Source: Fodinicola acaciae (GTDB taxonomy: Bacteria > Actinomycetota > Actinomycetes > Mycobacteriales > HKI-0501). Taken from it: 64,000 bases of DNA. The stretch lies in NCBI RefSeq assembly GCF_010993745.1, contig NZ_WOTN01000003.1:1550001-1614000 (forward strand), read 5' to 3'. The notes under the pieces were generated by a model. It made no database searches. It worked only from the letters and a program-made list of their open reading frames with translations, and was not told the DNA's origin. Below are positions 39,656 to 58,928 of this stretch, in pieces (the stretch's first letter is position 1; the number at the start of each line of letters is the position of its first letter). Made by a program: the position numbers and the translations under genes.

Positions 39656-40359
39656 ATGACCGGCGTTCAGCCGATCATCACCACCTCGGAGCCAGTTTCC
39701 TCGGACCTGATGCTGCGCGACGCCGAACGGGAATACCGCAAGTCCGTCGCGCGGGTGTTGGATATCGTCAAGGCGATTGAGCACAAAAGGCGTACGAGCA
39801 GTTGCAGACCAAAACTATGCAGCAGCTGTTGGAAGACCAGTTGCTGCTCTCCCAGGCCGAGGCCCGTCGCCGGGCGCAGCGCGCACGCGCATTCTGTCCG
39901 GGCATGGCGATGACGGGTGAGATGTTGGCGGCGAAGCTGGACATCGCCGCGAGGCCATGCGCCGTGGTGATCTGGCTGATTCGCAGTTGGATGCGATCCG
40001 TGCAGTGATCACCAGGCTGCCGGCACATGTGGATTTCCAGCAGCGGGGAAGTTGCCGATCCAGGGTGCGCAGCGGCCGCATCATCCCGGTCATCCTCAAC
40101 TCCGAAGGCGTACCGCTGGATGCTGGGCGTAAGGAGCGGCTGGCCGGCCCAGAGTTGCGGAAAGCGTTGATCGCACGGGACAAAGGCTGCATTCGGCCGG
40201 GATGCACCCGGCCAGTCCGGCACACGCGATCGCACCACATTGGTGTCGTGGGTGGACGGTGGCACCACCTGCCTGGAAAAACATCCCGAATTCATCCCGC
40301 CAGTTGACGTGGATGTCGAGCAATTGCCGCTGCGAAATACCTACCACCTGTACGGCTGA
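39656..40359 (+). pseudogene. DUF222/HNH endonuclease (13E12-type) pseudogene 1
   Basis: Broken gene read in four successive frame segments. The N-terminal part (SVARVLDIVKAIE) shifts frame at the A-run 39785-39788 into KAYEQL...LLSQAEARRRAQRARAF; a second shift near 39946 leads to EAMRRGDLADSQLDAIRAVI, and a third near 40249 separates CIRPGCTRPVRHTRSHHI from VDGGTTCLEKHPEFIPP. The middle of the DUF222 domain is missing. The HNH motif remains recognisable. DUF222/HNH proteins are a repeated family in actinobacteria; no activity is expected here. Confidence 0.8.
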
Positions 40360-40593: not shown

Positions 40594-41520
40594 TCACAGT
40601 CCTGCCGGCCAGGTGGGTGAGGTGGGGCGCCCGGCGGTGTCCGGCGTGTCGACCAGGTCACCGAGCTGCGTGACCCCGAAAAACCACTCGGCGTCGGCCG
40701 GCCGCAGGCTGATCCCACCGGCGGACACGTCGCGGTGGCCGATGTCCGGCACGGCCCAGCGCGCGGCGAACGCGCCGTCCCAGTCGTTCATGCTGACGAC
40801 CCACTGCACGTTCACGCGGTAGAAGTCGGCTTTGCCCGGCGTGCCGCCGGTCAGCACCTTCGTACGGTGTTTCCCGGTGACGACCGAGCTGCCGCGCGGC
40901 GTCGGCGCGCTCGGCTTGCCGAGCGAGACCGGCAGCACCCGCGCCACCCGGCCATCCGACCGGACCGTCAGCTGATGCTTCGCGGCATCGACCGTCGTCA
41001 CCTGACGCGCCCCGATCGACATGGAAAACGACAGGTCCGCGGCGAAGGTACGCCCGTCACCCGTCGGTTTTCCGCGTACGGCCGCCACCACCTCGACCTT
41101 CGAGTGCGGCCGCCAGTCGGCCCGCGGCAGGAACAGCAGTTGCCGGTTTCCCGGCTGCCATCGCCACCGGCCCGGCACGTCGGCGCCGCCAACGCGAACG
41201 GCGATCGCGTTGACGATCGGGGCGCTGACCGGCTCGGTGAAACGCAGCACGACCGGCATCTGAACGCCGTACGAGTCGGCGGCCGGCGGCAGGACTCGCA
41301 CCTGGTCACCGGCGGCCGGAGTCGCTGTCGGCCGGGGCACGACCGTGACCGCGGCGACAACGACCACCAACGCGGCCGCGGCGGCCACGAACAACGGCGC
41401 GATCCACGAGGCGCGGCGGCCGGCGACCGGCGCGGGCTTCGGCGGCTGCCGGCGCTCGTCCACGGCGGTCGTCGCGGCCGCGTGGAAGGCGTCACCGAGC
41501 AGCTTCTCGACGTCGTTCAT
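40594..41520 (-). CDS. anti-sigma-like membrane protein with degenerate L,D-transpeptidase domain
   Basis: Protein of 308 residues. Order: cytosolic segment 1-38, one membrane helix at about 39-61, an Ig-like domain at about 72-165 and a YkuD-type domain at about 175-295. The YkuD motif is normally S-H-G-C; here it is S266-A-G-G269, and the preceding His of the F-V-H motif is Ala 253. Flanking residues (ISLRPADAEWFFGVTQLGDLV) still align well, so the catalytic His and Cys are specifically lost. The gene overlaps the upstream ECF sigma gene by ATGA, the usual position of an anti-sigma factor. I infer a cell-wall sensor controlling the sigma factor. Confidence 0.78.
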   Translation of the reverse strand: MNDVEKLLGDAFHAAATTAVDERRQPPKPAPVAGRRASWIAPLFVAAAAALVVVVAAVTVVPRPTATPAAGDQVRVLPPAADSYGVQMPVVLRFTEPVSAPIVNAIAVRVGGADVPGRWRWQPGNRQLLFLPRADWRPHSKVEVVAAVRGKPTGDGRTFAADLSFSMSIGARQVTTVDAAKHQLTVRSDGRVARVLPVSLGKPSAPTPRGSSVVTGKHRTKVLTGGTPGKADFYRVNVQWVVSMNDWDGAFAARWAVPDIGHRDVSAGGISLRPADAEWFFGVTQLGDLVDTPDTAGRPTSPTWPAGL

Positions 41521-42035
41521 GCCAGCCCTCCCAGCGTACGTTTGACCGCCGCCAGTCCGCGGCTCGCGGTGGACTTCACTGCCCCGGGCGAAATTCCCAG
41601 TGTCTGGGCGATTTCCTTCTCTGACGGCCCCGACCAGTAGCGCAGGATCAACACCTCCCGTTGCCGCCTCGGCAGCTGCCGTACTGCCCCGAGCGCCTGC
41701 CGGTGTTCTCCGGACAGCAGTGCGTGATAGTCGGCGCCCTCGGCCCGCTCCGGCTCGGCGGCTCGCAGGTGCCGACGCGCCACCACACGCCGCCGCAACA
41801 CCGACCTGGACAGGTTGAGCACGGACATGCGCAGATAGCCCACCGCCGCGTCCGGATCCCGCAACCGATGCTGGTGACGATGCAACGCGACGAAAGCGTC
41901 CCGCACGACGTCCTCCGCGGTCGCCACGTCATCCACCAGCAGCACGGCGAGCCGCACCATCGCCCGCCAGCTCTGCGCATATATGGCGGGTACGTCGACA
42001 GGCACCCGCCCCGTCCCTTCCAATGCGATCGTCAC
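41517..42035 (-). CDS. SigE-family ECF sigma factor
   Basis: RNA polymerase sigma factor of 172 residues. Region 2 (LAVLLVDDVATAEDVVRDAF, AVGYLRMSVLNLSRSVLRRR) and region 4 (LPRRQREVLILRYWSGPSEK, EIAQTLGISPGAVKSTASRG) are complete. It lacks extra domains. It is translationally coupled to the downstream membrane protein gene (ATGA). The 25-bp gap to the TetR gene downstream of the operon's opposite end shows no obvious promoter; its own promoter should lie between 42036 and the end of the TetR gene. Confidence 0.88.
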   Translation of the reverse strand: MTIALEGTGRVPVDVPAIYAQSWRAMVRLAVLLVDDVATAEDVVRDAFVALHRHQHRLRDPDAAVGYLRMSVLNLSRSVLRRRVVARRHLRAAEPERAEGADYHALLSGEHRQALGAVRQLPRRQREVLILRYWSGPSEKEIAQTLGISPGAVKSTASRGLAAVKRTLGGLA

Positions 42036-42060
42036 CTCACCCGGTCGCGCAACCGGCCAG

Positions 42061-42654
42061 TCAGGTTGTCATCCGGCGGAAAGTACGCTCCAGCAGAGCG
42101 GCGACGTGATCCTGGAAGCGCTCCAGCGGCCAGCCATGCTCGACGATCAGCAGCTCGGGCAGGTCCGGCGAGCTGAGCGCCTGCAGCATCTCGGCGGCCG
42201 AGTCGACGGTCCACGGCTCGGCCAGCAGGCCGGCGTGATCGAGCCAGGCCATCAACATCTGGCACGACAGCAGCTGGTTGGCGTGCACTTTGGCGCGGTG
42301 CCGCGCGGCGTCCGGGTCGACCTGGTGGACCCGGTCGGCGGCGCGCATGACCGGCGCGATCCGCAGCACGTACGTGCCGAGGTGGCCGGCCCAGGCGCGC
42401 AGCGCGCTGACCGGATCGGCGGCCTGGAACACCGGATCCAGCGACGGCGCGAGGCCGGCCTCGTCGGCGATCTGGCCGGCCAGCTCGTCGATGAGCTCGG
42501 ACCGGGACGGAAAGTGCAGGTAGACACCGCGACGTGAGACGCCGGCGCGGTCGGCCACCGCGGCCATCGTGACCGCCTCGAAGCCGCCGTCGGTCAGCAG
42601 CTCGCGGGTCGCCGCGAGCAGCGCCTCTCTCGTACGCCGGCTCCGTGCGTTCAT
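42061..42654 (-). CDS. TetR-family repressor of MFS pump
   Basis: TetR regulator of 197 residues: RTREALLAATRELLTDGGFE, TMAAVADRAGVSRRGVYLHF form the DNA-binding domain at residues 5-50. It is divergent from the MFS efflux gene with 73 bp between starts, which contain two palindromic operators, so it very likely represses the pump and itself. Confidence 0.88.
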   Translation of the reverse strand: MNARSRRTREALLAATRELLTDGGFEAVTMAAVADRAGVSRRGVYLHFPSRSELIDELAGQIADEAGLAPSLDPVFQAADPVSALRAWAGHLGTYVLRIAPVMRAADRVHQVDPDAARHRAKVHANQLLSCQMLMAWLDHAGLLAEPWTVDSAAEMLQALSSPDLPELLIVEHGWPLERFQDHVAALLERTFRRMTT

Positions 42655-57504: not shown

Positions 57505-58258
57505 TGCCACTCATCCGACTCTCACTCGTCCAGCAACACTGTCAGAAGGCGCGCTTCGCGGACAACCTTGCCAGCACGGCGAAGTTCGCCGCCGGCACCG
57601 ACGCCGACATCGTCTGTTTTCCGGAGATGAGCCTGACCGGTTATCTGGATCCGGCCGTCCACGCCGATTCCGTGCTCGACCTGGACAGCGCGCAGGTGCG
57701 ACAGTTCTGTGCGTTGTCGGCCGGCCGTACGCTCATCGCCGGCATCGTCGAGCACAATTCCGCCGGTAAGCCGTTCATCACCCAGATCGTTGCCACCGAT
57801 GGAAAACTTGCTGGCGTCTATCGCAAGATCAATGTCGCGCCGGACGAGGAGGACGCGTTTGCCGCCGGCTCCGAAAGGCCGGTGTTCGAAGCGGCTGGCG
57901 TACGCTTCGGCATCGCGGTCTGCTATGACGTCGGTCACGGCGATCTTTTCGACGCGTACGGGCAGGCCGGCGCCGAGCTGGTGCTGCTGGCCGCCGCTCC
58001 GGGCTTGACGGCGAGCAGGAAGGCCGCGACTGGAGCTCCGGTTTCCAGTGGTGGCGCGGTGAATGCCGGCAACACCTCGCGGATTCCGCCAAGCGGAACG
58101 GAATCTGGGTCGGCGTGGCGACCCAGTCCGGGCGTACCGTCGACGAGGACTTCCCCGGCGGCGGTTACCTGTTCGCGCCGGACGGCTCGGTCGTCGCGGA
58201 AACCGCCGACCACACCGAGCAGGTTTTGACCGTCAGCCTCGAAACAGGTCGGCGCTGA
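57504..58258 (+). pseudogene. carbon-nitrogen hydrolase (nitrilase) with frameshift
   Basis: The first part contains the nitrilase triad: Glu in VCFPEMSLTGY, Lys in VYRKINV, Cys in AVCYDVGHGDLF. At 58007-58008 the frame breaks after LLAAAPGL; the natural continuation GEQEGRDWSSGFQWWRGECR and WVGVATQSGRTVDEDFPGGG, ending in TGRR at 58258, lies in another frame. A single missing base (probably turning TTG-TAC into TTG-AC) explains it. Both halves are otherwise well preserved, so the change is recent or a sequencing error. Confidence 0.75.
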
Positions 58259-58928
58259 TCCCCATCACCATCCGGTCACCGGGACGCAGCGTCCGCATGA
58301 TCGCGGTGAGGTCCAGCAGCGGGACGGCGATGCAGCCGGCGGTCGGTTTGTCGCTGCTGACGTGGAAGAAGATCGCCGATCCGTCGCCGGGGACCACCGG
58401 CCGCCGGTTGTAGTCGATGACCACGGCCTGCTGGTAAGGCCCGGACAGCATGATCGCCGACAGGTCCTCGTCGTCAGGGCCGCAGGTGCCGGAGAAATAG
58501 CGGTTGTAGCGCGGATCGGTCACCGTCGATCCCCAGCAGTCGCCGGTGGAGTGCAGCTGTCGATAACGCAACCGCGTGCCCGGGTCGCCTTCACCGAATG
58601 CCTCGGTCAGCGTGAACGAGCCGCTGGGCGTACGGCCGTCTCCTTCGCGTTTCTCCCCGGGCGGCGCGAAACCGGCGCGACCGGCCCAGCCGTCGACCTG
58701 GCGCACCGACTGCCACTTGCGGCCATGCCGCACGCATTCGGTGACCGTCACCGTCGTCACTCCGTAATCGGGAGCCACCGCGAACACCACGTGTTTCGCG
58801 CCACCGACCGGAAAACGCACGGTGTGGTCGGTGAGTGCACGGCAGGCGTCATCGCTCGCGTAGGCAGGCGTGCCAAAAGTGCTCATCGCGACCAACAGTC
58901 CCACGACCGCCGCCAACGTCCTGCGCAT
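58233..58928 (-). CDS. secreted L,D-transpeptidase (YkuD type), active site intact
   Basis: Exported protein of 231 residues with a signal peptide (MRRTLAAVVGLLVAMSTFG, cleavage after AYA). The YkuD pattern is complete: GDGRTPSGSFTL near residue 98 and FFHVSSDKPTAGCIAVP near 190 with catalytic His and Cys. It should make 3-3 crosslinks or attach proteins to peptidoglycan. Two extra Cys near 130-150 may form a disulfide. Overlaps the end of the nitrilase pseudogene by 26 bases. Confidence 0.8.
   Translation of the reverse strand: MRRTLAAVVGLLVAMSTFGTPAYASDDACRALTDHTVRFPVGGAKHVVFAVAPDYGVTTVTVTECVRHGRKWQSVRQVDGWAGRAGFAPPGEKREGDGRTPSGSFTLTEAFGEGDPGTRLRYRQLHSTGDCWGSTVTDPRYNRYFSGTCGPDDEDLSAIMLSGPYQQAVVIDYNRRPVVPGDGSAIFFHVSSDKPTAGCIAVPLLDLTAIMRTLRPGDRMVMGISADLFRG

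Follow-up and report, generated by a model that had tools for sequence, protein, structure and literature searches.

Background

CseBC, a two-component system, controls sigmaE of Streptomyces coelicolor in place of a coupled anti-sigma factor. Its promoters are of the AAC(C)...CGTC type and L,D-transpeptidase (LDT) genes are members of its regulon, as described in part of one report (PMC6767563). In excerpts of a report on Bacillus thuringiensis, PbpP, a penicillin-binding protein, acts as the beta-lactam sensor for the ECF sigma factor sigmaP in the PbpP/RsiP/sigmaP system and is a protein separate from the anti-sigma factor (PMC8092216). The gene pair described here resembles that system in that a wall-transpeptidase fold would do the sensing for an ECF sigma factor; it differs in that sensor and putative anti-sigma factor are one protein, the LDT fold being built into the latter.

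RsgI anti-sigma factors act on a different sigma family (SigI), have a different N-terminal domain and respond to polysaccharide ligands. Several membrane-bound members in Clostridium thermocellum sense different outside substrates, according to a partial text of PMC12203970, and to that extent the RsgI set is like the present putative family of membrane anti-sigma factors with differing outside sensing.

Anti-sigma domains of the CnrY type are short. Such class II domains embrace the outer surface of their ECF sigma factor (part of PMC8103513); they are compared here by description, and no sequence relation to the N-terminus of the present protein was seen. An LDT-fold anti-sigma factor is not described in the sections covered of the open-licence literature on YkuD or D-transpeptidase together with anti-sigma factors, where the corresponding sections of PMC3482391 and PMC3416734 concern other matters. 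Sensing anti-sigma factors as such are known; an anti-sigma-like protein with an LDT-fold sensor would be new.

Results

The sigma factor gene and its overlapping partner

The window, the whole stretch of 64,000 nucleotides of Fodinicola acaciae DNA that was analysed, contains the following two genes:

41517 to 42035, minus strand: ECF sigma factor gene with regions 2 and 4 (172 aa, GTG start; PF08281 3.5e-16, PF04542 3e-5)
40594 to 41520, minus strand: putative membrane anti-sigma factor with an LDT-fold outer part (308 aa; start codon overlapping the end of the sigma gene by ATGA)

The coordinates, strand, two open reading frames and ATGA overlap given by an earlier sequence-only reading of this DNA were all confirmed. 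The sigma protein contains Sigma70_r2 and Sigma70_r4_2 above the Pfam cut-offs and belongs to the ECF group at large (TIGR02937, 62.2 against a cut-off of 42.9). With the SigE-fam_strep model TIGR02983 it scores 141.4 bits, marginally below the cut-off of 141.55, and it may be related to sigmaE of S. coelicolor; unlike sigmaE, it has a coupled putative anti-sigma factor. The GC content by codon position is 0.72/0.56/0.89. Given this coding pattern and the recurrence of the pair in relatives, the association of the sigma gene with an LDT-fold partner is more than chance.

A TetR regulator gene (PF00440; 42064-42654, minus strand) immediately precedes the sigma gene in the same orientation, with about 25 bases between them, and is divergent from an MFS transporter gene (PF07690; 42728-43999, plus strand). 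On the other side, between a secretory-lipase-like gene and the sigma pair, short ORFs in shifting frames (39656-40347, plus strand) resemble a broken gene; one piece, 39957-40304, has no Pfam match.

Domains and active site of the partner protein

The partner can be divided as follows:

41407 to 41520, minus strand: N-terminal cytosolic module, about residues 1-38, the proposed sigma-binding part, included in the shared N-terminus and helix profile
41329 to 41406, minus strand: single hydrophobic stretch, about residues 39-64, Ala/Val-rich, read directly in the sequence
41068 to 41328, minus strand: Ig-like domain (Big_10), residues 65-151, from Pfam, with strands in the structure model
40651 to 40998, minus strand: YkuD-fold domain, residues 175-290, lacking the catalytic His and Cys (F251-AARW255; S266-AGG269)

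This layout is the one that had been proposed. The N-terminus of approximately 38 residues and the one hydrophobic stretch were read by inspection, whereas the outer domains rest on Pfam, with 31.1 bits for Big_10 (cut-off 22.9) and 44.5 bits for YkuD (PF03734, gathering cut-off 23.4), which makes the protein a member of the YkuD fold family. Residues 47-297 match LdtMt2 at 6e-28 (phmmer) and share with LdtMt2 and its relatives the order of Ig-like domain followed by YkuD domain. A structure model made from an eight-row alignment, which is weak (mean pLDDT 53, mostly below 50 in the catalytic region) and serves for the fold only, likewise has LdtMt2 as its best Foldseek match (1.6e-14). No known anti-sigma domain of Pfam or NCBIfam matches the protein.

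The partner differs from LdtMt2 in being encoded with a sigma factor and in lacking the residues of an active L,D-transpeptidase, a His upstream of W and the Cys of SxGC: the corresponding motifs read FAARW and SAGG. The reading of S-H-G-C as S-A-G-G was thus correct and there is no Cys at the catalytic position. Ala 253 had been taken as the replacement of the catalytic His; a His is indeed absent, but A253 aligns with the invariant Ala of H-x-A-P-W and a Val-His pair is deleted. The earlier assignment is an alternative placement of this two-residue gap, and the His is missing under either placement. The protein also differs from free-standing LDT relatives, which mostly have a lipoprotein signal (a lipobox pattern in 23 of the 28 inspected at the N-terminus), in having a short polar N-terminus followed by a helix.

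Occurrence in related genomes

The sigma factor was sought in 397 genomes of the order. In the sigma and partner searches the best 8 to 12 or so first-look candidates per genome were scored (8 in the order-wide sigma search), so that the pair counts given here are lower bounds. Among the matches listed, the eight best sigma factors (window included) share at least 65% identity and come from two genomes of family f1 (G000, the genome of the window, and G001) and six of family f2 (G039, G071, G099, G146, G152 and G164). In seven of these eight loci the sigma gene is immediately followed, in the same orientation, by the gene of an LDT-fold partner. In G071 the sigma gene and the N-terminus of a partner end one contig and an LDT half lacking a lipobox begins another, from which the eighth pair is inferred. 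There are thus at least eight pairs in two families, one of them (G071) inferred. The ATGA overlap is present in the window and in six of the seven other LDT pairs, the partner of G164 starting elsewhere. The G000 and G001 proteins are 41% identical in the LDT partner domain and 72% in the sigma factor, and the G001 partner copy has a frame break.

A profile of the partner gave five full-length matches in 24 f2 genomes, together with many free-standing relatives. Among 249 genomes of the order, matches at 1e-62 that start at the profile N-terminus were those already found, and among the best candidates of 197 genomes of the class (about 8-12 in each) only the genome of the window matched at 1e-75. 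A search of 296 class genomes yielded 22 related sigma loci in 20 further genomes, none with an LDT partner within the fetched flank.

State of the catalytic residues

Both His and Cys are kept in four of the eight coupled partners (G039, G099, G146 and the inferred pair of G071) and both are lost in three, namely in the window, in G001 (Tyr at the His position, no Cys) and in G152 (Ser at the His position, SGGG at the Cys motif). The partner of G164, in which Ile replaces His and Cys is kept, is the only coupled case with loss of His alone. The sequence-only reading had taken the protein for a pseudo-enzyme and had counted intact homologues beside a sigma factor against itself in advance. Its view stands for the window and for G001, the only further genome of this genus that was included, but the intact coupled homologues rule out catalytic death as a conserved feature of the family. 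The partner would be better described as carrying an LDT-fold sensor that can do without catalysis, which several lineages have lost.

Free-standing LDTs retain both residues in 69 cases out of 70, these being the distinct free LDTs of the fetched loci, none of which lies beside a relative of the sigma factor within the available flanks. At least one catalytic residue is therefore lost in 4/8 coupled versus 1/70 free proteins (Fisher p=2e-4, relatedness ignored). When relatedness is considered, with four changes on the tree and three supported independent pairs, the link between loss and coupling is not significant. The single exception among the free LDTs (L014, contig C86 of G012) has SHGR, with Arg in place of Cys.

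Exchange of the outer domain

The eight LDT-coupled sigma factors form one clade (86/90), as do the six from f2 (99/97); this count leaves out L077_CPL, a second sigma factor of G164, which is not LDT-coupled. A single clade of the coupled LDT domains was tried as the corresponding topology and rejected, both for all eight (AU p=0.0002, 113 log units) and for the six of f2 (p=1.8e-7, 77 log units). Since the sigma genes form one clade and their LDT domains do not, domains have been exchanged between sensors and enzymes. The sensor domain of G039 has a free-standing lipoprotein LDT from G039 itself as its neighbour in the tree (100/100, 74% identity) and that of G152 groups with free LDTs of G152 and G164 (92/80), while the domains of the window and G001 form one long branch (100/99). 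LDT trees do not distinguish gain from loss: gene conversion and repeated fusion could both account for the pattern, and the free enzymes could also descend from sensors.

An N-terminal module shared with other partners

The sequence-only reading had regarded the gene order and topology as those of anti-sigma factors. This view gains from the recurrence of the ATGA overlap and from an N-terminal module that is shared with partners of other kinds. A profile of the N-terminus and helix, built from seven LDT partners, matches all 11 non-LDT partners of related sigma factors when only those 11 are searched (E from 1.6e-12 to 7e-4). In a wider scan of all ORFs of at least 100 codons in 102 loci, eight of the 11 are recovered at 0.003 or better, ahead of the first match that is not beside a sigma gene (0.14); L054 (0.13) and L058 (0.18) are not separated from other matches, and L050 is absent from the list. 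The N-terminus of G071, left out of profile building, matches at 3e-8 with the helix and at 4.5e-10 with the cytosolic part. Restricted to the 32 cytosolic residues, the profile matches non-LDT partners poorly (best 0.0019), so that the Ala-rich helix contributes much of its signal.

Among the 22 related sigma loci of the class, 21 have an ATG or GTG overlapping the sigma stop codon by four bases. Of these start codons, 20 open a frame of at least 187 aa, and one frame is cut by the contig end; a purine before TGA would in itself be common by chance. The profile matches below 0.01 at only 4 of the 22 loci. Among the 29 order-level sigma loci fetched, the window's own apart, 11 have no overlapping partner; all belong to family f14 (L056, L059-L065 and L067-L069), and at L056 a similar N-terminus occurs further downstream of the sigma gene.

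Of ten related-sigma partners compared with Pfam, two contain Gmad2, one of these with Germane as well, and eight have no match. Outer domains of Germane plus Gmad2 or of Gmad2 are found at L202 (407-1486, minus strand) and L198 (1971-3467, plus strand); the eight partners with no Pfam match may hold unnamed sensor domains.

The gene overlap and the recurring N-terminus and helix make it likely that the partner is an anti-sigma factor, which would restrain a stress sigma factor from its place in the membrane. The loci together appear to represent a family of sigma/anti-sigma pairs with presumed binding through the common N-terminus and with outer sensors that can be exchanged; the LDT fold would be one such sensor.

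A promoter pattern upstream of sigma and LDT genes

A candidate promoter precedes the pair:

42043 to 42068, minus strand: putative promoter of ECF type for the pair, with the sequence CAACC-N16-CGAC, lying across the 3' end (stop codon) of the upstream tetR gene

The pattern CAACC-N16-CG(A/T)C, found by eye and after the fact, lies upstream of all eight LDT-coupled sigma genes, and in its plain form it is not rare (five in the window against 2.5 expected). Upstream of free YkuD genes of the eight genomes it occurs 12/34 times in sense versus 2/34 in antisense orientation (Fisher p=0.006), and three of these 12 sites belong to LDT genes of G000. The 34 genes are those left of 35 after removal of G164 C93 (broken frame, contig end). 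Upstream regions were defined by the open frame; 3 of the 12 sites are downstream of the earliest start codon available, and the G001 C48 site is 449 bases upstream of the start that was called. The LDT promoters have CGTC in 11 of 12 cases and the sigma promoters CGAC in six of eight, so a second SigE-like sigma factor may read the LDT genes.

Genome-wide, a tighter pattern shows a strong excess over a reversed control in four of the six f2 genomes (matches/control: G039 40/5, G071 34/9, G099 31/22, G146 34/9, G152 21/16, G164 30/3) and little or none in f1 (G000 84/50, G001 54/63). The surroundings of 19 hand-picked promoter stretches in G000 and G001 hold, besides LDT genes, mixed or no credible genes. 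In view of this and of the small excess in f1, no regulon is claimed.

Discussion

The explanation that best covers these observations, and one that we consider rather probable, is that the pair consists of an ECF sigma factor and a membrane-bound anti-sigma factor with an LDT-derived sensor. Residues 1-38 would hold the sigma factor at the membrane, and the outer LDT fold would bind a wall component normally handled by LDTs, presumably peptidoglycan tetrapeptide stems. Altered occupancy of the outer domain would then release the sigma factor. Since catalytic residues were lost on three coupled branches, binding rather than chemistry is likely to be the signalling step; in species with intact His and Cys, acylation of the domain by wall stems or beta-lactams could occur as well. 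The freed sigma factor would transcribe its own operon from the CAACC-N16-CGWC promoter and possibly LDT genes with a like promoter, in which case a copy of the enzyme would sense the need for the enzyme.

It is conceivable, if somewhat doubtful, that the anti-sigma factor contains a duplicate of the LDT that the cell itself uses, renewed time and again from the gene of the resident enzyme or swapped with it, so that both see the same substrate; the scatter of the LDT domains against the single sigma clade, and the grouping of the G039 sensor with a free LDT from its own genome, would fit this. With binding sufficient as the signal, some lineages would then have lost catalysis, and the sigma factor would drive the LDT genes through the shared promoter.

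A different view of the partner is that of an LDT enzyme belonging to the sigma operon and decaying here, on its way to becoming a pseudogene in this genus. Four intact proteins out of eight (one in an inferred pair), the presence of LDTs in the sigmaE regulon of S. coelicolor according to part of PMC6767563, the fast evolution of the domain (41% against 72% for the sigma factor between G000 and G001) and the frame break in the G001 copy are what decay of an operon enzyme might produce. However, the frame is open in the window with a coding GC pattern, and the neighbour of the broken G001 gene is also broken, so that an assembly error is plausible there. Moreover, coupled proteins with intact and with damaged active sites alike keep the N-terminus, in place of the lipobox found in 23/28 free relatives, and a similar N-terminus is present on non-LDT partners. 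Decay of an operon enzyme is thus unlikely.

BlaR1-type sensing proceeds by acylation of the sensor domain, and the LDT-fold anti-sigma factor could in the same manner, or in that of PbpP, be a direct sensor of beta-lactams (carbapenems). The four coupled proteins (one from the inferred pair) with intact His and Cys would permit this, and the role of PbpP for an ECF sigma factor in excerpts of PMC8092216 provides a precedent. Yet the proteins of the window, G001 and G152 have no catalytic Cys, acylation cannot be the general signal, and we regard direct beta-lactam sensing as improbable. Just as little is to be said for a partner that assists the sigma factor or acts on another target, the overlap serving co-expression only: part of the sigma family does lack an overlapping partner, but the four-base overlap and the shared N-terminus recur across lineages.

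A membrane anti-sigma factor with an LDT-derived sensor, if it exists as proposed, would be a concrete receptor for the state of the wall and suggests a way for cells to sense their own wall; to our knowledge, how bacteria with 3-3 cross-linked peptidoglycan do so is largely open. If LDT genes belong to the regulon, sensing of the wall and its cross-linking would be joined in one loop. Sensors that are intact, half-dead or dead occur as a natural series, which also offers a means of separating binding from catalysis.

A second YkuD-type protein is encoded in the window at 58233-58928 (minus strand; 231 aa); it is probably secreted and has an intact-looking H and C (FFHV...TAGC). In G001, a gene resembling it by eye lies directly upstream of the sigma gene (L005, 1-654) and is frame-broken in the draft.
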